Origin: Anaerolineae bacterium
Lineage (GTDB): Bacteria > Chloroflexota > Anaerolineae > Aggregatilineales > Phototrophicaceae
Direction: 5' to 3'
DNA length: 33,689 nt
NCBI GenBank assembly: GCA_019912985.1
Contig: JAIOHN010000758.1
Location: 1-33,689 of the forward strand
Shown here in pieces: positions 6,063-29,648 of the stretch. Below the pieces are notes generated by a model. That model was not told where the DNA came from and ran no database searches. It saw only the letters and a list, made by a program, of their open reading frames with translations. The translations under genes were made by a program, and so were the position numbers. The first letter of the stretch is position 1; every line of letters starts with the position of its first letter.

Positions 6063-6896
6063 TTACTGCGCATCTACAGGCATGTTGGCGGTGAAAAACT
6101 CGACCAGCACCGGCGCAAGCGCTGCCGCCTCGACCTCATGCGCCTGACCTTCGAGGGTACGGTGCTGCGCGTTGGGGATCGCACCGGCCAGCGTTACAGC
6201 GCTGGTATGCATAAAGGGAAAGGCTGTCGCACCCCCATCCATAACCAGTGTAGGGACGGAGAGTTGACTTGCGCGCTCGGCAGGCACGGCAGCATCGTCA
6301 CCCAGGGCAGCAGCATCGTAGGCAATGGTGGGCGCGATTAATTCAAACATCGGCCACATCGGGTCGTGGCGCATCCCTTCCAGGTGTTCGGCAGGCATCC
6401 CCAGCAGCAGCATAAACAGCCCGACAGCATCCCCCCGGCGGCCCTCAGCGAGGGCCTGTGCCAGCTCTTTGCGAAACGCCTTCCACGCCTGACGCGCATC
6501 GGCGTCATCGTTGTAGGGCGGCTCGTACAGGGCCAGCTTCCGCACCTTCCCGCCCAGCGCGAGCGCTGCCTCAAGGGCAAGCGCTGCGCCGGAGGAGATA
6601 CCGAACAGGAAAGCCGTTCCACCCGCCTCATCAATGAGGGCTTCGATGTCTTCGATTTCACGCGCCACCGTGAAGGGCTGTGTGTCTGTGCTGTCGCCAC
6701 GTCCGCGCCGGTCATAGTGCAGCACGGTGAAATGCTGTGCCAGCAGCGGGAACGCCGCAAGCTGGGCAGTCTCGGAAGGCATGGCACGCTGCTCAAACAT
6801 GCCGCCTACCAGGATCAATGCTGGCCCCCGCCCCGCCTGCTCAAAGGCGATGGTCGTGCCATCTCTGGAAATTACGGTTTTCTGTAGGGTATCCAT
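6063..6896 (-). CDS. Alpha/beta hydrolase
   Basis: GRGPALILVGG, VLHYDRRGRGDST, FGISSGAALALEAAL, LEGQAHEVEAAALAPVLVEFF. Confidence 0.85.
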   Translation of the reverse strand: MDTLQKTVISRDGTTIAFEQAGRGPALILVGGMFEQRAMPSETAQLAAFPLLAQHFTVLHYDRRGRGDSTDTQPFTVAREIEDIEALIDEAGGTAFLFGISSGAALALEAALALGGKVRKLALYEPPYNDDADARQAWKAFRKELAQALAEGRRGDAVGLFMLLLGMPAEHLEGMRHDPMWPMFELIAPTIAYDAAALGDDAAVPAERASQLSVPTLVMDGGATAFPFMHTSAVTLAGAIPNAQHRTLEGQAHEVEAAALAPVLVEFFTANMPVDAQ

Positions 6897-6908
6897 ATAT
6901 GTATTTAC

Positions 6909-7391
6909 CTATGCGATCTGCTGCATGTCTGCCAAAAGTGTATCGAGCCGATCCCAGCTTTCAGTCGCGCCTGCCTCCATGCCCGCCTGGAGCATGCCGT
7001 CCCGATCCTCAACCGACTGGAACACAGAGGAGTCGATCACCAGAGTTTTGCCGTTGTGTTCTTCCAGCGTCACGGTTTCCAGCAGCACATGGCCGGGCAT
7101 CCCCTCGAACTCGAAGGTGTAGACGAGGCGCTCTGGTGCGGTGATTTCATGGTAGACGCCGTTGAATATCCATTCGGTGCCATCCGAATCGTGCTGGATA
7201 TAGCGCCAGATGCCGCCCTTACGCACGTCCATCTGTTCCACTGTCAGCGGTGTTGCATCCTGTCCCCACCAACGCGGCACCAATGTGGGGTCGGTCATGG
7301 CCTTAAAGACCAGTTCGCGCGGGGCATTGAACTCGCGCGTCATACGGATTTCGTGTTTCCCTGGCTCGACGATCAGATTAAGCTTGGTCAT
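6909..7391 (-). CDS. SRPBCC/AHSA1 domain protein
   Basis: MTREFNAPRELVFKAMTDPTLVPRWWG...MDVRKGGIWRYI...ESWDRLDTLLADM. Start set at MTKLNL (7391), overlapping the upstream arsR-like gene by 14 nt. Confidence 0.88.
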   Translation of the reverse strand: MTKLNLIVEPGKHEIRMTREFNAPRELVFKAMTDPTLVPRWWGQDATPLTVEQMDVRKGGIWRYIQHDSDGTEWIFNGVYHEITAPERLVYTFEFEGMPGHVLLETVTLEEHNGKTLVIDSSVFQSVEDRDGMLQAGMEAGATESWDRLDTLLADMQQIA

Positions 7392-7710
7392 TATCCTGCT
7401 CCTCTTGCTGTAACTCATCCAACAAATTATCCAGCCGGTTATAGCGCTCCTCCCACAGACGACGGTAGGGTTCCAGCCACACACTCAGTTCCGCCAGCGG
7501 CTCCGGGCGCAGCTCATACCAGCGACGCTGGGCGTCCTGCCGCACATTGACCAACCCTGCCTCGCGCAGCACCCGCAAGTGCTTAGAGACACCGGGCTGG
7601 CTCATTTCCAGCAGATCCACCAGCTCACCGACGAGGCGAGGGCGTTGGCGCAGTAAATCCAGGATTTGCCTGCGTGTGGGGTCTGTCAGTGCATCAAATA
7701 CCGTCATCAT
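7378..7710 (-). CDS. ArsR-family winged-helix transcriptional regulator
   Basis: VFDALTDPTRRQILDLLRQRPRLVGELVDLLEMSQPGVSKHLRVLREAGLVNVRQDAQRRWYEL. Confidence 0.93.
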   Translation of the reverse strand: MMTVFDALTDPTRRQILDLLRQRPRLVGELVDLLEMSQPGVSKHLRVLREAGLVNVRQDAQRRWYELRPEPLAELSVWLEPYRRLWEERYNRLDNLLDELQQEEQDNDQA

Positions 7711-7796
7711 GCACTTAATATACCATATTGGTTATATAGCTGTCAAGTTATATATTGGGTTTTCATACATGAAACCCCATTTTCAGGGGTTATGAT

Positions 7797-7830
7797 CGGA
7801 CACGGCTCCGAAGAATTACTGCCGTGTCCG
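7797..7830 (-). terminator. Hairpin downstream of VOC gene (CGGACA/TGTCCG family)
   Basis: CGGACACGGC-N14-GCCGTGTCCG, perfect 10-bp stem immediately 3' of minus-strand CDS 7848..8258. Confidence 0.6.
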
Positions 7831-7847
7831 TCATAGGGGTTTACACA

Positions 7848-8258
7848 TTAAAGTCCGGGCGGGATTTCCTGCAACAGCCACGAATTGCCATCGGGATCGC
7901 TGAAACCGGAGAACTTGATGCCTCCAGGGTATTCGATCACCTCGCCCATCGCGACTCCGCGCTCGATCAGCGCTGCACGTGCGGCGTGAATATCCATCAC
8001 CACCAGATGCAGCCCCTTGATTGTCCCCGGCTGCATTTCGGAAATTTCGCCCATACCGGTCCCGATCACAATCGAGCAGCCTGAACCTGGCGGTGTGAGC
8101 TGGATGACTCGCGTCGTCTCGCTGGACTGGACATCGTGATCCAGGTGGAAGCCGACCTGTTCCACATAGAACGCCTTGGCGCGGTCCACATCCGACACTG
8201 GCACTGGCACCAGCTCAAGTTTCATCGTGAGAGTTTTTGACGTATTTTCCTGAGGCAT
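7848..8258 (-). CDS. VOC/glyoxalase-family protein
   Basis: MKLELVPVPVSDVDRAKAFYVEQVGFHLDHD...GLHLVVMDIHAARAALIERGV...FSDPDGNSWLLQEIP. Start set at MPQENTSK (8258); the longer track ORF reads into the upstream gene out of frame. Confidence 0.9.
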   Translation of the reverse strand: MPQENTSKTLTMKLELVPVPVSDVDRAKAFYVEQVGFHLDHDVQSSETTRVIQLTPPGSGCSIVIGTGMGEISEMQPGTIKGLHLVVMDIHAARAALIERGVAMGEVIEYPGGIKFSGFSDPDGNSWLLQEIPPGL

Positions 8259-15645: not shown

Positions 15646-16659
15646 TTAAACTGCTACTTCCACCGCACAGCCTTGCTCCGCCGATTGGTACATGGCTTCG
15701 ATCACCGCCATGGTTCCCAGGTTGTTACGCCCGGAGGACAGCGGTTCACGGCCATCGCGCACGCATTCCAGAAAATGACGCACTTCATTCAGGAAGGTCG
15801 CGTTGAAATCCGCATCCGGCAGGCCAAGATTGGTCACTTCTCTGCCATGAGTCATGAACCAGCCGCCGACATTGTGGATCATTCCCTGTTCGCCATACAG
15901 AACCGTCAGTTCATGCGAGGCGGTGGGGATGGGCGCACGCGGCGAGGCAAATGTGAAAAACGCGTCGCCAATGGCCCCGTTTTCAAATTCCAGTGTCATC
16001 GCGGCCACGTCTTCGCAGTCCATTTCAGGATTGAGACCGGAAATGCGATGGACAGCATTCACCCGCTTGATCTCGCCCAGCAGGTAACGCATCAGGTCGA
16101 GCTTGTGAATCGCGGTAGTGCGGATCACGCCGCCGCCGGACTTCACTTTGCGAAACAGCCAGTGTCCCGGCGGGTAGATGGCGCTGAGCATCTGATTGCC
16201 GTCTATCCGTGCGGCGAACACGCGCCCGATGCTGCCTTCGTTGAGCAGCTCCTTGATGCGCCAGTGTTCCGGCAGATAGCGCTGATTCTGAGCGATCATA
16301 TAAGTGATGCCTGCCGCTTCTGCCGCCGCCACCATGGACCGGGCTTCAGCCAGATTCAGCGCCATCGGCTTTTCCAGCAGTACATGCTTGCCTGCCTGCG
16401 TCGCGGCGATCACCTGTGGCCGGTGTAGATAATGGGGTGTGCAGATCGACACCGCGTCGATATCTGGATTGGCGATCACTTCTTCCCAGTCGGTCGTGAC
16501 CTGTACCCCGTTGTTAAACAGGGCCGCTGCTTGCTGCGCCGCCTCCAGGCGGTCATCACAGCAGGTCACCACGTGCGCCAGCTCACTCGCTGCCAGATAC
16601 CCCCGCGCATGCTGCTGACCCATCAAGCCACAGCCGATAATGCCTACACGTAATGTCAT
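15646..16659 (-). CDS. Gfo/Idh/MocA-family NAD(P)-dependent oxidoreductase
   Basis: LRVGIIGCGLMGQQHARGY, DIDAVSICTPHYLHRPQVIAATQAGKHVLLEKPMALNLAEARSMV. Confidence 0.94.
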   Translation of the reverse strand: MTLRVGIIGCGLMGQQHARGYLAASELAHVVTCCDDRLEAAQQAAALFNNGVQVTTDWEEVIANPDIDAVSICTPHYLHRPQVIAATQAGKHVLLEKPMALNLAEARSMVAAAEAAGITYMIAQNQRYLPEHWRIKELLNEGSIGRVFAARIDGNQMLSAIYPPGHWLFRKVKSGGGVIRTTAIHKLDLMRYLLGEIKRVNAVHRISGLNPEMDCEDVAAMTLEFENGAIGDAFFTFASPRAPIPTASHELTVLYGEQGMIHNVGGWFMTHGREVTNLGLPDADFNATFLNEVRHFLECVRDGREPLSSGRNNLGTMAVIEAMYQSAEQGCAVEVAV

Positions 16660-16667
16660 TTACGCCC

Positions 16668-18920
16668 CTATTCTGCGAACTGACAAACCAGAGTTATCGC
16701 TCCGGCACCGCTGCGAGTTTTAACCAACGCGGCTTTTTGTGAGGCCAGCCACTGCCAGCCTTCGTCTACCGCCTCGACATCATCCACCTGTGCCAGGGCC
16801 TTGCCTTCACTGGTGATCGACTGCGGTTTGCCGCGATGGGCGATCAGCGTAAAGCTGGTGGCGTTGGGTTGGTCTTGCAGCACCAGCCGCAGCACCCTGT
16901 TATCCTGAACATGGGTAATAGTTGCACCGCTGGTGATATGGGTAATCTGGTCACCGCTTTTCACCAACTGTGGCTCGGAGAGCAGCGGCAGGCCCGCCAG
17001 TGGCAGTGTATTCAACCCCACCAGCTGTGGGTTCAGCCACCAGGTGTATTCTTCATCACCGTGTACCGTGCTGAACGCATCCGGGAACATACCCAGATAC
17101 GGACCTTCTTTGGCCTGTTCCTGGATACCGTGGCGAGTGATGCCTTCCGCCAGCTGATACCAGTCGATGGGGCCATCTGTGCGCGTATACTGCGCCAGCC
17201 GGAACAGCGAATCCGCATACCACAGGCCGTTCCAGTGGACGATCACGCCGAACCACGACTGGACATCATGGAAGGTCACGCCGAAAACAGGAATGGTCCC
17301 GTAACGCATGATCGGGCGATAGTACGGATTCCAGAGGAACGTGAAGACCAGCCCGGTCCATGCCCAATAGTTGGCATGATCGAGATATTTGCTGTCGCCA
17401 GTGAGTTCATACGCGCCCAGGTTGAGGTTAATCAGGTAGGGCGCGGCCAGCACATCCGGCACATGCAAATGCAGTTCCCAGGTTTGCGCGCCTTCGGGAC
17501 GACGCTGCGTGTTGCACCAGTCTGCCGCCTTGATGACGGACTCGACAGCTTCGGCGTCACCTGTGATCAGTGCGTATTGCAGCACTGGGATGACTTTACT
17601 GCCCGTGTAACCGGTGGCGCTGTCCTGCTCCTTGCCCATGAGGGCGATGCGGTCTTTGGTCTTGAACTCGCCAATATCGGCAATGGCCTCCGGAGTCCAG
17701 CCCCAGGAGCCATCCGCCTGTTGTTCGCTAATCAGCTCTTTTACGGCCTGTGCCGCACCCTCCAGCGATTGAGCGACTTTGCCAAAGGTCAGCGCCAGCT
17801 CGATCCGGGGGACATTGTGCGGGGCAGCGTGCTTCTCGAACAGACGTGGGATAGCGCGCCGCACCTGATCACGAGCGCGGGCCTGTTTCACCGGGTCGCC
17901 CTGTGACCAGCGGCTGTAGCGCCATAGCTGGTTGGCGAGGATCGGCTCAAAGCGTGGCCCCCACGGGTCAGCCAGGGTGTGATGCCAGCCTTCGGCCTCA
18001 TCATCCCAGGCGATATTCAGATAAGAATCGATGCACAGTTCCACATTTTCCCGGTAGCTTTGACCGCCATCCGGCAGGGGCGGCAGCCCGTAGGTCTCCA
18101 TCCACTGGCGCATGATGCCCATCACACCGCCTTCCGGCACCGCGACCAATTGGGCGCTGAGGGTGTGCGGGTTGGTAGGGCTGATGCCGTTGCCTTTTTC
18201 GCCTTCGGTTTTGCCTTCCGTGATGTGACGCTCACCGCCGCCGGGTGTGAACAATGCCATCCAGTGATTCTCAGCACCGTCCTGCAAACGATTCGGCGAT
18301 GAAAACAGCGACGACGGATGCCGCCAGGCCGATCCCCATGCCTGGTTAGGGTCCCACAGCAGGCCGACCGCCTGTTCATCGCAGCTGACGGCCATCAACG
18401 GGACCGTGACGCGGTAGGGGTGGGGGACAGTGCGGTTGGCGTACTTCTCAGCCGCGAAGCGCGTATCGGACGAGGGTTCATCATCCAGTAGATATTCCAG
18501 GCCGGGGAACAATGCCTCGGATTTACCGCTGCCGAAGCTGCCTTCGCCAGCATACAGGCATGGCCCCAACCAGCGGAAGACCTGCGCATTTTGGTCTGGC
18601 TTCAGCTGGTAATCGGCCTGGAACTGGTATGGGCTGTCGGTTTTGGAGAATTTCACGCTCAGCTGCCAGTTGGTGCCATCGACATCGGTCATGGTCCCGC
18701 TCAGCTTGAGCGCGGAATCCGTGGCGTCCCATTCCTGTGCATTGAGCGCGGTTTCGTGCCGCTCGCCCGCTTTGTCTTTGTAAATCAGGTGGCTGAGTGG
18801 GGTTGTTTTGGCAACTTGCTGCCAGCCGCTGCTGCCACGAACTTCGAGGGTGAAGCCAGTTATTTGCCCACCTTCCTCAAGGCAGGCTAATCGGAGTGAG
18901 TCGGTTTCTAAGCTTGTCAT
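16668..18920 (-). CDS. Uncharacterised 750-aa carbohydrate-active-enzyme-like protein (beta-rich N-terminus, helical toroid-like centre), no signal peptide
   Basis: Trp/Tyr-rich sequence, aromatic helical segments (DWCNTQRRPEGAQTWELHLHVPDVLAAPYLINLNLGAYELTGDSKYLDHANYWAWTGLVF), operon position between sugar permease and Gfo/Idh/MocA. Family not recognised. Confidence 0.6.
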   Translation of the reverse strand: MTSLETDSLRLACLEEGGQITGFTLEVRGSSGWQQVAKTTPLSHLIYKDKAGERHETALNAQEWDATDSALKLSGTMTDVDGTNWQLSVKFSKTDSPYQFQADYQLKPDQNAQVFRWLGPCLYAGEGSFGSGKSEALFPGLEYLLDDEPSSDTRFAAEKYANRTVPHPYRVTVPLMAVSCDEQAVGLLWDPNQAWGSAWRHPSSLFSSPNRLQDGAENHWMALFTPGGGERHITEGKTEGEKGNGISPTNPHTLSAQLVAVPEGGVMGIMRQWMETYGLPPLPDGGQSYRENVELCIDSYLNIAWDDEAEGWHHTLADPWGPRFEPILANQLWRYSRWSQGDPVKQARARDQVRRAIPRLFEKHAAPHNVPRIELALTFGKVAQSLEGAAQAVKELISEQQADGSWGWTPEAIADIGEFKTKDRIALMGKEQDSATGYTGSKVIPVLQYALITGDAEAVESVIKAADWCNTQRRPEGAQTWELHLHVPDVLAAPYLINLNLGAYELTGDSKYLDHANYWAWTGLVFTFLWNPYYRPIMRYGTIPVFGVTFHDVQSWFGVIVHWNGLWYADSLFRLAQYTRTDGPIDWYQLAEGITRHGIQEQAKEGPYLGMFPDAFSTVHGDEEYTWWLNPQLVGLNTLPLAGLPLLSEPQLVKSGDQITHITSGATITHVQDNRVLRLVLQDQPNATSFTLIAHRGKPQSITSEGKALAQVDDVEAVDEGWQWLASQKAALVKTRSGAGAITLVCQFAE

Positions 18921-18977: not shown

Positions 18978-19862
18978 TTATGCCTTCACCGCGCCGCTGG
19001 TGATGCCACGAATGTAATAACGCATGCCGAACATGAACAGAATCAGCAGCGGAATGGTCGCCACGGTGTATGCTGCCATGCGTGGCCCCCAGTCAGTAAT
19101 GCCGAACTGGGATGTAAACTCGGTCAGTCCCACCGAAACCACCTGCATTTCTGAGCTGGTGATCGTCAGCAGCGGCCAGATAAAGTCGTTGTAAGTGCTC
19201 ACAAGATGCATGATCGCCACCGTGACGATGATCGGCCATGAGAGCGGCACTGCAATCTTGTAATACAGCTGAAACTCGTTCGCGCCATCAATCTTGCCCG
19301 AGTCGAACAGTTCTTGCGGTAGATTAGCGAAGAAACTTCGACAGAGCAGAATGCCGAACACCTGCCCGCCTGCGGTCCATGGCAAGATCAACGCCCAGGG
19401 GGTGTTAATGATGCCGAGCTGCTGCACCAGCACGAACGACGGAATCAGGGTCAACACACCGGGGATCATCAACAGCGCCAGAATCAGCATGTAGATCACT
19501 TCTTTGAACGGGAAGCGATGGCGCGCAAACACATAGCCACTGAGTGAAGCCAGGAACACCACGCCTGCTACGGAAATGCTGGAGTAGATGAGCGAGTTGG
19601 TGATATAACTGACCATCGCATTGTAGCCCGAGGGGTAGTTCTCCCATCGGATTGGATTCGGCAGGCCCCAGAAGCGTCCGTAAATCTGCCCATTATCCTT
19701 GAGCGAAAGAAAGACCATCAGGATGATCGGCACCAGTGTGAGAAACAGCAGCACGAATAAGCTGAGGAGAATCAGCGACTGCTGGAATGCATCGTGCCGC
19801 AGCGCCTGGAACCTCGTGGTCTGACGGTCCTGAGTCAGGGGTTTATCAAGTGTGGTTGCCAT
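18978..19862 (-). CDS. Carbohydrate ABC transporter permease (MalG-type)
   Basis: Six hydrophobic segments; EAA-like loop NLPQELFDSGKIDGANEFQLYYKIAVPLSWPIIVTVAI; C-terminal GMRYYIRGITSGAVKA. Confidence 0.93.
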   Translation of the reverse strand: MATTLDKPLTQDRQTTRFQALRHDAFQQSLILLSLFVLLFLTLVPIILMVFLSLKDNGQIYGRFWGLPNPIRWENYPSGYNAMVSYITNSLIYSSISVAGVVFLASLSGYVFARHRFPFKEVIYMLILALLMIPGVLTLIPSFVLVQQLGIINTPWALILPWTAGGQVFGILLCRSFFANLPQELFDSGKIDGANEFQLYYKIAVPLSWPIIVTVAIMHLVSTYNDFIWPLLTITSSEMQVVSVGLTEFTSQFGITDWGPRMAAYTVATIPLLILFMFGMRYYIRGITSGAVKA

Positions 19863-19865
19863 AGT

Positions 19866-21878
19866 TTATGCCTCGTACTCGGTCTGGGAACGGACATACC
19901 GCAAATTGATGATGGTGCCGCCCAGGATGATGAGGAACAGGAAGGTTCCCATCGCTGAGGCCAGCCCGAAATTCGTGAAGCGGGTCGCGGTATAGTACAG
20001 TTCCAGCGCCGGGGTGTAGGTCACATTGCCAGGCCCGCCGCCGGTTGTCAGGAAGATCAACTGGAACTCTTGTATACTGCCGATAAAGGCCAGGATGAGC
20101 AGCAGTTTGATCTGACTCATAATCATCGGAATGTCGATGCGGATAAAGCGGTTCCACCAGGTCGCCCCGTCCACTTTGGCCGCGTCAAACAATTCCTGTG
20201 GGATGGTGATCAGGCCGCCATAGAAGATCAATAACGCGAACGGGCTGATCCAGGGGAAGCCAATAGCGATCAATGCGGGCATCGCTGTGCTGCGGTCGCC
20301 CAGCCAGGTACGTGTGAGTTGATCGAGTCCCAGGCCGCGCAGGGTTTCATTCAGCAGGCCGATGTTGGGATCATAGATATTCACCCACAACAGCACACCA
20401 ACCACGCTCGGTACGACCAGCGGGATGATGAACAGGGTACGGACCGCGTACTGCATGAAGTTGCTGCGGATGTGGAAAATTAACTCCGCGACCAGCAGCG
20501 GTACAGCCAGCTTCACAAATGCAGCGACTGCTAACAGCACTGCATTTTTCATGCCAATCCAGAAGTATTGGCTGTTGACCATCGCGCCGAACTGATCCAG
20601 ACCCACCCAGGTGGTTTCGATGCCGGGATTCCACTCTGTAAACGAGTGGTAGAGGCCAGAAGCCGCTGGGTAATAGTTGAAGATGAGTAGCAGGATGATC
20701 GTTGGGATGATCAGGAAATAGGACACACGGCTGCGCCACATACTCACCAGCGTACGTCGCACCGGGCGTGAGGTCACATTCCAGAAGTGCGCGCCAGACG
20801 TCGTGCGATTGACCCATACAGCGCCGATTGCTAACAGGAGCAGCAGCGCCGCCGGGATACCGATCATCAGGTTGCGCCGGTTCGTTTGGGCGATGGCATA
20901 GGCTGCTGCAGCGGCTTCAGTGGTGGTCGCATGGACCGCACCGCCGCGTGTGCCGATTAACCAGGTTTGACCGTCAGCGGAGATCGCCAGGCTGGAGATC
21001 GGTTCGCCAAAATTGCTGCGCTGGATGACGCTGCCGTCCGCGCTGTCGAGCAGAAATACCTCGCCGCTGCGCGAACCGACCAGAACACGGCTGCCATCAG
21101 CGGCCATATCCACCGTCAAGCAATTGCTGCGAGATGTACAGCGCCCTTGATCGGGCGGTGTGATTTGCCAGATGATGTCGGCGTTCGCACCGTTAATCAG
21201 CGTGATTTGCCCGTCGAGTGTGGCCGCAACCACCTGCGCACCGTTGCTGGTTACCGCGATACCGGTGACGTCATCGGAAAGTTGCGCACGCCACAGCCGA
21301 CTTCCTTCCGGGCTGAACAGGCTGACGACGGAGTCGCGCGTGCCTGCCAGTGGGCGGATTTTACTACTGCCGTAAATAGCGATTGAATCCGCGATGTTTT
21401 CCAGGCCGTATGTCCACATGGGTTCGCCTGTTTCGCGGTCGAAATAGAAAAGCTGCCGGCTTTCATCCACGGCGGCGATGCGCGAACCGTCAGCAGAGAT
21501 GGCGACATCCAGAAAAATGCGCGTGTCGCGATAGGCCCAGAGTTGCTCACCTTCGGCGTTCAGCAGATAGACATTGCGGTCTTCGCTGGCGACAGCGGTA
21601 TACTGCCCATCCGCTGAGGTATCTACGCCCCAGACAGTTCCCTGTGGAGCAAACTCCCATAGCAGGTTGCCCTGCTGATCATAAGCTGCCACACGGTTAT
21701 TACGGCTGCCTACGATCTGAATAGTGCCGTCCTCGGAGAGGGCCGTCCCATAGACAATATCTCCAAGAGAAGCATCCCAGGTATCATCCTGGGCTAGCAC
21801 GGTCAGTGGCAGCGCCAGCAGTACTAACAGCAGCGCCACCAGCAGCACACGTGCTGACGTTACATATTTTGAACCCAA
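19866..21878 (-). CDS. Fusion: signal peptide + seven-blade WD40/PQQ-like beta-propeller + extra TM helix + MalF-type carbohydrate ABC permease
   Basis: Residues 1-29 signal peptide (VLLVALLLVLLALPLTVLA|Q); about 30-335 seven repeats of the pattern SxDGxxxxxGSxxxxVxLxxxxGxxLW; about 337-356 TM (LMIGIPAALLLLLAIGAVWV); then permease with SYFLIIPTIILLLIFNYYPAASGLYHSFTEWN and EAA loop IPQELFDAAKVDGATWWNRFIRIDIPMI. Confidence 0.9.
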   Translation of the reverse strand: MGSKYVTSARVLLVALLLVLLALPLTVLAQDDTWDASLGDIVYGTALSEDGTIQIVGSRNNRVAAYDQQGNLLWEFAPQGTVWGVDTSADGQYTAVASEDRNVYLLNAEGEQLWAYRDTRIFLDVAISADGSRIAAVDESRQLFYFDRETGEPMWTYGLENIADSIAIYGSSKIRPLAGTRDSVVSLFSPEGSRLWRAQLSDDVTGIAVTSNGAQVVAATLDGQITLINGANADIIWQITPPDQGRCTSRSNCLTVDMAADGSRVLVGSRSGEVFLLDSADGSVIQRSNFGEPISSLAISADGQTWLIGTRGGAVHATTTEAAAAAYAIAQTNRRNLMIGIPAALLLLLAIGAVWVNRTTSGAHFWNVTSRPVRRTLVSMWRSRVSYFLIIPTIILLLIFNYYPAASGLYHSFTEWNPGIETTWVGLDQFGAMVNSQYFWIGMKNAVLLAVAAFVKLAVPLLVAELIFHIRSNFMQYAVRTLFIIPLVVPSVVGVLLWVNIYDPNIGLLNETLRGLGLDQLTRTWLGDRSTAMPALIAIGFPWISPFALLIFYGGLITIPQELFDAAKVDGATWWNRFIRIDIPMIMSQIKLLLILAFIGSIQEFQLIFLTTGGGPGNVTYTPALELYYTATRFTNFGLASAMGTFLFLIILGGTIINLRYVRSQTEYEA

Positions 21879-21954: not shown

Positions 21955-23643
21955 CTAGAAGTTTTCTGGCCGCTTGCTCGGATCTTCGAGGTCGGCAGGG
22001 GTGATATTCTGGTGATCCAGAATCTCGTCAAAGTGGTTCATGAGCGACTGCTCATAGTCATCGAGGAAGGCATCCAGGGTGATCTCGCCCAGGAAGTACT
22101 GGTGCGCCAGGTCGACCCATTCACGTACAGATGGCTGGTAGTCCGCCACGCCACGGGAACGATAGGTTCCGGCGGTGTCCTTCTCGGTGTTACCGATCAG
22201 GCGCAGACCTTCGAAACGTGCTTCCAGTTCGGGCGGTAGCTGCACATCGTTGATCGCTAACGGGCCATTAACACCGCCGTTGGCATTATTGGGGTCCAGC
22301 TTGTTTGCCAGGTAGACACCCGCACCTTCAGGGCTGGTCACAAACATCAGGAAGTCGACTTCGAGGTCGTTCTGAGCCTGATCTTTCTTCGGGATGCTCC
22401 AGAAGCCGATATTCACTTCAATCGTACGGGCAGGGGCATCTACCTCTGCGCCTTCCATCGTCGGATTGTTGAAGGTACCCAGTTCGAAGACGTTGGCTGC
22501 CAGATCATCGGCAGACGGGGTCGGGGTAGGCGCGCCTTCTTCAGCGGTAGAGTAGTTGTAAGTGCCTTCAGCCAGGCTGCGGATGTCTTTTTCAAAGTTG
22601 CTCAGCATCCAGGCACCATCGAGGCGGATCGCAGCTTTCCCGGTGAGGAACAGTGGGTAGGCATCGGTTGTGCCGATCCAACCAGGAGGCGCACAGCGAT
22701 CACCAAATTCCTTGAAGTTGGTATACATCTCGCGCCAGGCTTCGCCGTTGACGCTTTGCTCGCCATCTCTCAGCGCGATCATCTTACGCACCGGGTTGAA
22801 GGTGATATTGGTGTTGTCGTCGTTGGTCGGATCGCTGGGATCATAAACCCATTGGTCATCGACACCTTCACGGAAGCAGTAGTCACCAGGCTGGCAGCGT
22901 ACCAGTTCGGCCTCATCGCGGGTGAACTGATCGGCATACATACGGGCTAGCCAACCCACACGCAGTTGCCAGAAGGAGTTGAAGTCGCCTTCAATTGCCA
23001 CCGGGATGTAACCAGCGTCGCTCAGCGCATCACACCAGTTCAGGAACTCGTCCCAGGTGGGTTGGTTGCGTGGGCCTTCGGCCACAGCCTGCGCATCGTC
23101 CAGAATGCCAGCTTCTTCAAAGGCTGTCTTGTTATAGAACCACAGCACCTGCACAGTTTCCGTGTTCAGCAGGTACATCTCGCCGGTCAGCGGGTCGCGC
23201 ATGTTGGAAAGCGCGGTTTCGTCGAAATCTTCGCGCCACAGACGGTTGCTGTAGGGGCTCTCGCGGTCCAGATAGGCGCTGAGGTCAAGAAACACCTTGT
23301 CGTTCACCAGGTCGGCGACGACGTTACCATTCACCAGTGAGAACTCGGGATCGCCAGCCGCGAACTGCGTGCGGATGAATTCCTGATAGCCCTCGCTCGG
23401 TTTCAGTTCAACCGTGCAGTTTACGTTAGGATGGAGTTCGACATAAGCGGCGCATAGGGCTTCCCACGTCTGGGTGTCAAGACTCTGGAAGCTGACGACA
23501 ATGTCACCGCTGAGCTCTGCCATCTCACCTTCACCTTCACCCTCGATCTCAACTTCATCTTGAGCGATGGTGATGCTAAAAGAGACGACTAGCAGACCTA
23601 ACAGGAGAAAGGTCACGAAGATTTTGAGGTTTTTGGCGGACAT
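21955..23643 (-). CDS. Extracellular (carbohydrate) solute-binding protein, family 1-like, non-lipoprotein
   Basis: Signal peptide IFVTFLLLGLLVVSFSITIAQ; SBP_bac features (ELKPSEGYQEFIRTQFAAGDPEFSLVNGNVVADLV, FYNKTAFEEAGI, PTWDEFLNWCDAL, FLTGKAAIRLDGAWML); first gene of the transporter operon. Confidence 0.9.
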   Translation of the reverse strand: MSAKNLKIFVTFLLLGLLVVSFSITIAQDEVEIEGEGEGEMAELSGDIVVSFQSLDTQTWEALCAAYVELHPNVNCTVELKPSEGYQEFIRTQFAAGDPEFSLVNGNVVADLVNDKVFLDLSAYLDRESPYSNRLWREDFDETALSNMRDPLTGEMYLLNTETVQVLWFYNKTAFEEAGILDDAQAVAEGPRNQPTWDEFLNWCDALSDAGYIPVAIEGDFNSFWQLRVGWLARMYADQFTRDEAELVRCQPGDYCFREGVDDQWVYDPSDPTNDDNTNITFNPVRKMIALRDGEQSVNGEAWREMYTNFKEFGDRCAPPGWIGTTDAYPLFLTGKAAIRLDGAWMLSNFEKDIRSLAEGTYNYSTAEEGAPTPTPSADDLAANVFELGTFNNPTMEGAEVDAPARTIEVNIGFWSIPKKDQAQNDLEVDFLMFVTSPEGAGVYLANKLDPNNANGGVNGPLAINDVQLPPELEARFEGLRLIGNTEKDTAGTYRSRGVADYQPSVREWVDLAHQYFLGEITLDAFLDDYEQSLMNHFDEILDHQNITPADLEDPSKRPENF

Positions 23644-23886: not shown

Positions 23887-24936
23887 ATGAAACGACCCAC
23901 GCAAGCGGATGTAGCCAGATTGGCCGGTGTCTCCCGCGCGACCGTCTCCTATGTCATCAACGGCTTACAGGATAATCAGGTCTCGGAGGAAACACGGCAG
24001 CGGGTACTCAAAGCTGTGGCGGAGCTGGGTTACCAGCCAGATGCAATGGCACAGTCGCTGCGTCTGGGGACCACGAATACCATTGGCCTGCTCATTCCCG
24101 ATATGGATAACCCACACTACTGGCATATCGCCAAAGGAGTCGAAGGCGAAGCCCAGCAGCAGGATTATGACCTGCTGCTCATCAGCGCATCCCTGGACCC
24201 TGACCGCGAACTGCACGGGGTTCGTGCGCTTTCACGCCGTCGTATTGATGGCCTCATCCTGATTCTAAGCTTCATCGACTATGCCAATGACGACATCCGC
24301 CGTCTCATCCGCCAGAAAAGACCGCTGGTGCTGGTGGGTGGCAGTTCGGCGCGTGATGTAGATACGGTGTACCTCAACGAAGTGCAGGGTGCATCGCTGG
24401 CGATGGCGCATTTGCTGGAACTGGGTCATAAACAGATTGGTTTTGTCTACGGTGTGGCGCATAATCAGATGGGCGCGAGACGGCTGGAAGCTTACCATAA
24501 AGCCATGCAGGCTGCCGGATTGGACCCGCTTGTCGAGCATTGCGGCACAACCCCTGAGGATGGTTATCAAGCAGCGTACAGTCTGCTCAATCGCAAACCG
24601 CGCCCTACCGCGCTGCTGGTGATCAACGATCTGCTGGCAATCGGTGTCCTGCGGGCAATTGTGGATTATGGCCTGAGCATCCCACAGGATATTTCCGTCG
24701 CCAGTTTTGACGACATCAACCTGTCACTGTACGTGAATCCGCGCCTGACCACTGTGGGCGCGAACGCCAGCACCTTGGGGCAGGTCGCGGCGCGAACCAT
24801 CTTTCAACGGCTGCAAGACCCCAATCTACCCCATCAAAGCGTTGAATTATCCGGCGAGTTGATTATGCGCGATTCCACTGGCCCCGTCCCGACCGCGCCG
24901 GACAGACCTCAGCGGCGGAAAATGGTCGGGCAGTAA
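23887..24936 (+). CDS. LacI-family transcriptional regulator
   Basis: MKRPTQADVARLAGVSRATVSYVINGLQDNQVSEETRQRVLKAVAELGYQPDAMAQSLR; periplasmic-binding-like C-terminus. Confidence 0.96.
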   Translation: MKRPTQADVARLAGVSRATVSYVINGLQDNQVSEETRQRVLKAVAELGYQPDAMAQSLRLGTTNTIGLLIPDMDNPHYWHIAKGVEGEAQQQDYDLLLISASLDPDRELHGVRALSRRRIDGLILILSFIDYANDDIRRLIRQKRPLVLVGGSSARDVDTVYLNEVQGASLAMAHLLELGHKQIGFVYGVAHNQMGARRLEAYHKAMQAAGLDPLVEHCGTTPEDGYQAAYSLLNRKPRPTALLVINDLLAIGVLRAIVDYGLSIPQDISVASFDDINLSLYVNPRLTTVGANASTLGQVAARTIFQRLQDPNLPHQSVELSGELIMRDSTGPVPTAPDRPQRRKMVGQ

Positions 24937-28379: not shown

Positions 28380-29648
28380 TTATTCCAGTGCGTCTTCCAG
28401 GCCAGCGATCATCTCGTCTACAGCTTCTTCGACCGTCGCTTCGCCTACCAGCACCTTCTGGAAGGCGGGCAGCACGACATTGGAACTCCAGCCGGAGTAA
28501 CCGATGAAATTCGGTTCCAGTGTGCCGAAGGTCAGCGTTTCGATTGCGGCAGCGTAGAATGGATTCTCAGTGATGCGCGGGTCCTCGCTGACGGCGGATG
28601 AGGCCGGGAAGTAGCCGGTCTCTTCCAGGAACGCGATGGTCGGGTCGGTCTCGCCCCAGAACTGAATCCAGGCAAAGGCCGAGTCGAAGTTATCGCGCTT
28701 CATAATGCCGTTGTAGAGGTAGCTCAGGCGGGCGGTGGTCGCCACTGGACCCGCCGGGCGGATTGCGCTCATAAACACGCCATCGGTCCCCAACGCTTCC
28801 TGAATTTCCGCCAATGACCCGGTGTGATGCCAGACCATCGCGGTTTGCCCGGTCTTGAAGCCTTCCATAATCTGGCGGTAGCTGTCGCTGGGTGCGCTTG
28901 GCGGGACCACACCGTGAACCGTATACAGGTCCGAGTACCACTGGATGGCCTCAATCGCCAGATCACGATCAATCGCCGGTTGACCATCGACCACGATGGG
29001 GGAGCCAAACGCCTCAAGCATCGCGACCACGAAGCCCTGGCCGCCATCACCACCGCGCATGCCGAAACCGTAACGCCCATTTTCCGCATCCGTCATAGCG
29101 ATCGCAGCTTCCAGGAATTCGTCAAAGGTGGTCGGCGGCTCGATGCCCGCTTCATCGAACCAGTCTTTGCGATAGTAGGCCCAGTCCACGAAGGTGAAGG
29201 CAGGGATGCCGTAGATTTCACCGTCAACGGTGATGCCTTCCCAACGGTTGTCCGGGAAGTATTCCTTCAATTCCCAGTTGTTAACCTCTTCGGTGATCGG
29301 AATCAGCCCATCCATCGCCACCATATCTGGCAGGCGTGCCACGCTGACCATTGACGTATCGGGGCGGCTGTCTGCGATCACCGCCTGGGTGAACTTGGTC
29401 ATGAAGTCCGCGTTCGGGATATTCTCCTGAATCAGCTCGATGTTCGGATACTTCTCGTTGAACATCGCAATCACACGCTCCATGCCCTGAAACTCGGTCT
29501 CACTGGTGAAGTGATGCCAGTAGTTGACGGTGCCGCCCAGGTCTTCCTGCGCCAGGGCAGGCAGCAGATGGGCGAAAGGCACTGCCGCCAGCCCGGTGAG
29601 GCCCGCAGCCTTCAAAAAATCACGACGACTCATTTTTAAGTTCGGCAT
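28380..29648 (-). CDS. Carbohydrate ABC transporter solute-binding protein with Tat-like signal
   Basis: MSRRDFLKAAGLTGLAAVPFAHLLPALAQE twin-arginine signal; NYWHHFTSETEFQGMERVIAMFNEKYPNIELIQENIPNADFMTKFTQAV; AAGGAG RBS. Confidence 0.93.
   Translation of the reverse strand: MPNLKMSRRDFLKAAGLTGLAAVPFAHLLPALAQEDLGGTVNYWHHFTSETEFQGMERVIAMFNEKYPNIELIQENIPNADFMTKFTQAVIADSRPDTSMVSVARLPDMVAMDGLIPITEEVNNWELKEYFPDNRWEGITVDGEIYGIPAFTFVDWAYYRKDWFDEAGIEPPTTFDEFLEAAIAMTDAENGRYGFGMRGGDGGQGFVVAMLEAFGSPIVVDGQPAIDRDLAIEAIQWYSDLYTVHGVVPPSAPSDSYRQIMEGFKTGQTAMVWHHTGSLAEIQEALGTDGVFMSAIRPAGPVATTARLSYLYNGIMKRDNFDSAFAWIQFWGETDPTIAFLEETGYFPASSAVSEDPRITENPFYAAAIETLTFGTLEPNFIGYSGWSSNVVLPAFQKVLVGEATVEEAVDEMIAGLEDALE

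Follow-up and report, generated by a model that had tools for sequence, protein, structure and literature searches.

The gene at 19866..21878 on the minus strand of the window, as we call the whole 33,689-nucleotide stretch analysed here, encodes a single polypeptide of 670 residues in which a predicted seven-bladed WD40/PQQ-like beta-propeller is followed by a sugar ABC permease. In Pfam searches, PQQ_2 (9.7e-21, above the gathering score) and BPD_transp_1 (2.3e-14, above the cut-off) both matched this polypeptide, whose frame opens with a TTG codon at 21878 and contains no internal stop. We found 43 homologous fused permeases, each encoded by one unbroken frame. Named GTDB genomes contributed six full-length homologues with 46-67% identity, four from Anaerolineae, one from a 'Chloroflexi' MAG and one from Thermomicrobiales.

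Layout and membrane topology of the fusion protein

All features of the fusion lie on the minus strand. The chain begins with a signal peptide (residues 1-29; 21792..21878), probably cleaved at a VLA|QDD-type site, and an x-A-Q cleavage site is common to most homologues with a cleaved signal, which we refer to as type A. The propeller occupies residues 34-319 (20922..21779) and is followed by an extra transmembrane helix, TM0 (residues 338-356; 20811..20867), which was identified by hydropathy and falls within a helix spanning residues 320-358 in the predicted model. A basic linker, predicted to be cytoplasmic (residues 357-384; 20727..20810), then leads into a CUT1-type permease domain (residues 385-670; 19869..20726), with the BPD_transp_1 match at residues 471-657. 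The permease half matched the UgpA model at 5.2e-29 and the MalF model at 4.9e-20, and its relatives in the PDB are 7cad, 4tqu, 2r6g (MalF) and 8ja7 (SugA). An EAA-type loop could be read at residues 562-584 (ELFDAAKVDGATWWNRFIRIDIP; 20127..20195), in which D565, A566, D570, G571, R577 and P584 are invariant across 10 homologues. Judged by these matches, the C-terminal half is a MalF/UgpA-type permease of a CUT1-type importer.

Hydropathy analysis placed hydrophobic segments at residues 11-29 (signal peptide), 338-356 (TM0) and 385-403 (first permease helix). The linker carries six Lys and Arg residues and no Asp or Glu, while region 30-337 is acidic, with 21 Lys and Arg against 39 Asp and Glu. 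This charge distribution predicts that the propeller lies outside, and an orientation on the outer side of the membrane is thus supported. In a second group of fusions, subtype B (L059 in the source genome, L056 and others), the cleaved signal is replaced by an uncleaved hydrophobic N-terminal helix. Both the cleaved signal and the uncleaved anchor are predicted to orient the propeller outward. The linker measures about 28 residues in the protein described here and is shorter in subtype B.

The preliminary description had read one uninterrupted frame comprising a signal peptide, repeats, a transmembrane helix and a MalF-type permease with an EAA loop, and this was borne out, with the frame on the minus strand. 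Its topology, with the propeller outside, the extra helix re-entering and a positively charged linker inside, agrees with the hydropathy and charge counts. It had also named a hidden stop or frameshift, and homologues encoded as two ORFs, as findings that would speak for two separate genes; the frame proved to be free of internal stops and the homologues are single ORFs. The source is a fragmented draft genome with an estimated contamination of 7.9%, which might favour a sequencing or assembly error merging two genes. However, the 43 single-frame fusions include named genomes and some long contigs, and the junction and TM0 are common to the homologues. The artefact was rejected on these grounds, and we regard it as extremely improbable.

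Propeller fold and conserved loops

AlphaFold2, run on ten homologues, returned seven four-stranded blades whose innermost strands begin at residues 42, 82, 122, 163, 204, 255 and 294. The N-terminal strand 34-37 completes blade 7 in a Velcro closure. The pLDDT of the propeller block is mostly above 90 over residues 41-320 and falls to 65 at a cysteine-containing loop. The permease half was modelled poorly, with pLDDT values under 50 over much of its length; therefore, the model supports no conclusion there, and permease membership rests on sequence. The Foldseek matches were the seven-bladed WD40 structures 5nuv, 5yzv and 7bie (target TM-score 0.84-0.88), and a search of the N-terminal half against PDB sequences matched the WD40 structures 2ymu and 7bie in several stretches. 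Combined, these results predict a seven-bladed WD40/PQQ-like propeller. Membership of two known propeller families was not found: the PQQ-dependent dehydrogenase model TIGR03075 scored 19.8 bits against a cut-off of 480, and the BamB model TIGR03300 scored 79.8 bits against a cut-off of 285. The subtype B model likewise has seven blades closed by an N-terminal strand, and the type A and subtype B propeller profiles aligned over 262 columns with a probability of 99.5.

Among the propeller loops, conservation is highest in the b-c loops of blades 1, 2 and 4; outside these three blades the surface is weakly conserved, while the fold is strongly so. On blades 1 and 2, these loops (residues 57-61, GSRNN, and 97-101, ASEDR; within 21576..21710) contain R59 and R101, both invariant in the 32 type-A sequences with letters at those positions, and S98, E99 and D100, each kept in 30 of 32. 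All five are non-structural residues. The model supports a short stalk leaving the propeller from the face opposite these loops, an assignment of both loops and stalk that derives from the DSSP strand order of the predicted structure. The propeller evolves under purifying selection, with a median dN/dS of 0.13 over 40 pairs from one genus, compared with 0.046 for the permease. It is also the fastest-diverging part of the operon, with a mean distance of 2.12 versus 1.22 for the solute-binding protein (SBP).

A CTSRSNC insert lies between blades 5 and 6 (residues 247-253; 21120..21140). Inserts of this type with exactly two cysteines occur in 5 of 34 type-A homologues, which are related to each other, and both insert and cysteines are absent from the other 29. 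The joint presence or absence of the two residues with the insert fits a disulfide, which this loop may form. The preliminary description had already pointed out this loop, which is real, and its proposed blade starts (41, 82, 122, 163, 204, 254 and 294) are within one residue of the AlphaFold2 strands. It had likewise made its reading depend on a propeller fold, which both structure prediction and the Foldseek matches returned.

Operon context, distribution and origin

Upstream of the fusion, the minus strand encodes an SBP of 562 residues (21955..23643; SBP_bac_1, 3.4e-20) that belongs to a long subfamily and lacks a lipobox. Downstream follow a partner permease of the MalG/UgpE type (294 residues, 18978..19862; BPD_transp_1, 3.9e-17), a 750-residue protein (16668..18920) and a Gfo/Idh/MocA oxidoreductase (15646..16659; GFO_IDH_MocA, 7.6e-31), all on the minus strand. 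A LacI-family regulator (LacI and Peripla_BP_3 domains) is encoded divergently at 23887..24936 on the plus strand, and such a regulator also adjoins the operon in L021, L023, L024, L103, L106 and L112. In all complete fused operons, the fusion is accompanied by adjacent genes for a long SBP and a MalG-type permease, usually in the order SBP, fusion, MalG; in G363, MalG is encoded ahead of the SBP. No MalK/UgpC-type ATPase was present among the neighbouring genes examined. At an E-value of 1e-30, the SBP subfamily was detected in only 5 of 399 phylum genomes, namely all three with the fusion and the two unfused relatives.

The remaining neighbours vary and include the 750-residue protein, Gfo/Idh/MocA dehydrogenases, sulfatases, an alpha-L-fucosidase-like protein and PhyH proteins. 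As far as gene content can tell, this company points to glycan-derived oligosaccharides as the substrate. The 750-residue protein, which has homologues in L022, L023, L103 and L104 and is kept downstream of several fused operons, matched nothing in Pfam or NCBIfam and nothing significantly in the PDB, and is possibly an unrecognised glycan-processing enzyme. Elsewhere, two paralogous long SBPs at 6202-8007 and 11235-12977 of L055 (G136), both relatives of the window SBP, flank one fusion-MalG pair. In an unfused sister permease clade (L125, L126, L128, L130, L131, L133 and L136), a protein of about 970-1000 residues often follows the operon; it is split on L131, and the L126 copy, the one scanned, contains FtsX domains.

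At least 30 of 396 genomes in the class sample carry the fusion, a lower bound obtained by counting matches with an open frame above 500 residues covering both parts, with six candidates scored per genome. In the phylum sample it occurs in 3 of 399 genomes. Beyond this class, fusions were found in one Thermomicrobiales genome and one genome of another class. The class of G363 has one in 47 genomes and that of G153 none in 29. The source genome holds three further fusions, on C68, on C964 and, as a contig-end fragment, on C293. A junction query detected no fusion on plasmids, though 2293 plasmid records carry permease relatives, and a sequence search with the two propellers, type A and subtype B, found no stand-alone propeller gene adjoining unfused permeases.

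A tree of 97 permeases placed all 43 fused sequences within one well-supported clade of 45, whose two unfused members are from G241 and G153. Monophyly of the fused permeases was not rejected (p-AU 0.47). The simplest history consistent with these sequences is a single fusion with at most one loss. An alpha-L-fucosidase-like protein is encoded next to both L056 and L059, subtype B systems whose genomes belong to two classes, which suggests transfer of the whole cassette.

Possible roles of the propeller and comparison with known systems

According to work cited in PMC3150292, the P2 domain of MalF contacts MalE, and in Gram-positive bacteria binding proteins are usually tethered or lipid-anchored (PMC8025302). 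By analogy, we tentatively favour, at somewhat less than an even chance, a MalF-side CUT1 permease whose secreted propeller binds the separately made SBP through the conserved b-c face. The propeller on its short stalk would stand next to where the SBP docks on the translocator, and its membrane-distal face on blades 1 and 2 would bind the SBP or the substrate-loaded SBP. This binding would raise the local SBP concentration and orient the SBP for delivery, in a role comparable to that of P2 in MalFGK2 or of the fused binding domains in GlnPQ. SBP docking is favoured because the fusion accompanies one SBP subfamily and because a short stalk should set the domain beside the docking surface. It is also made plausible by the missing lipid anchor in the source lineage, where nearly all SBP_bac_1 proteins, including those at 21955-23643 and 28380-29648 of the window, lack a lipobox (none convincing among about 27 with readable N-termini).

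Several results count against SBP docking. A mirror-tree analysis gave no specific signal for coevolution of propeller and SBP (partial r of 0.05 in type A, given the permease and MalG), the propeller diverges fast, and propeller and SBP are both acidic overall. In G153 and G241 the SBP and permease persist with no propeller at all, which shows that it is dispensable for some such SBPs. Furthermore, the SBPs of many fused systems do contain a lipobox, as do SBPs in other members of the class, and the source genome has Lgt and LspA genes. Since nearly all SBPs of this genome lack the lipobox whether or not their permease is fused, its absence characterises the lineage and does not mark the fusion. 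Substitution of the propeller for a lipid anchor was therefore rejected as a rule. SBP length was also rejected as a fusion marker, as the SBPs of unfused relatives likewise measure about 500-580 residues. Thus, while family searches, structure prediction and homologues uphold the architecture and topology in the preliminary description, its proposal of a docking, capture or sensing module received no specific support from the coevolution and SBP-anchor tests.

Other roles have to be weighed against SBP docking. The propeller could bind an oligosaccharide or a wall or extracellular polysaccharide directly and hold it near the importer without contacting the SBP. Ligand binding on the b-c/d-a face is common among propellers, sulfatases adjoin the fused systems L060 and L106, an alpha-L-fucosidase-like protein is found in L056, L059 and L117, and rapid divergence would fit ligand-specific tuning. 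However, the invariant face residues are Arg, Glu, Asp and Ser instead of the aromatic platforms usual in sugar binding, and the propeller tryptophans occupy structural d-strand positions; direct glycan capture seems unlikely to us, though less so than the two roles that follow. A purely architectural role in transporter assembly, stability or attachment to the S-layer or wall would agree with a strongly conserved fold whose surface shows only weak conservation except on blades 1, 2 and 4, and with the tolerated loss in G153 and G241. The conservation of specific loop residues and the constant association with one SBP subfamily make such a role distinctly unlikely. A slightly lower probability still is given to a sensor or regulatory cap that would report an external ligand or the wall state to the permease via TM0. 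Its layout of propeller, single helix and cytoplasmic linker resembles that of receptors such as PknD-type kinases, and TM0 is continuous with the permease, but a cytoplasmic signalling domain is absent, the linker is short, and the LacI regulator beside the operon already supplies control.

Under the SBP docking reading, these proteins might constitute a new class of Chloroflexota ABC importer in which the attached extracellular propeller is a docking and retention platform for the SBP, a broader proposal that we put forward with more reserve. If true, this would add a third means of retaining a binding protein at its translocator, after lipid anchoring and fusion of the binding domain itself. 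Few ABC transporters are as well studied as the CUT1 sugar importers, and extra extracytoplasmic domains such as MalF P2 and fused binding domains have taught much about binding-protein recruitment. The lineage offers a clean natural experiment: close relatives with and without the fusion can be compared, anchoring comes in two subtypes, and the conserved loops form a small patch that can be mutated. There is a warning for annotation as well, as Chloroflexota proteins labelled 'PQQ/WD40 repeat' may be transporter subunits.

Searches of open-access papers turned up no description of an ABC permease with a fused propeller; this agrees with the preliminary description, which knew of no example, and is not proof of novelty. 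The nearest permease models and structures, namely UgpA, archaeal GlcT and mycobacterial SugA, lack a propeller. WD40 and PQQ_2 propellers (BamB; 2ymu and 5yzv; 7bie) are alike in fold and repeat pattern, and to our knowledge none of them belongs to a transporter. PknD-type kinases share the succession of an outside propeller, one transmembrane helix and a module on the cytoplasmic side, whereas the attached module here is a permease and not a kinase. E. coli MalF of MalFGK2 belongs to the same CUT1 family, and both proteins have an additional extracytoplasmic domain with potential access to the binding protein. In MalF this domain, P2, differs in fold and is inserted between TM3 and TM4. In contrast, the domain described here is an N-terminal seven-bladed propeller with its own transmembrane helix; it precedes the permease helices, the MalF match begins at residue 447, and no insertion of the P2 type was found between TM3 and TM4, so that the analogy is functional only. 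In GlnPQ and OpuA, the permease chain likewise carries a permanently attached extracytoplasmic module. In those systems the module is the substrate-binding domain itself, whereas here it is a propeller and not a periplasmic-binding-protein fold, and the SBP is encoded by a separate gene.
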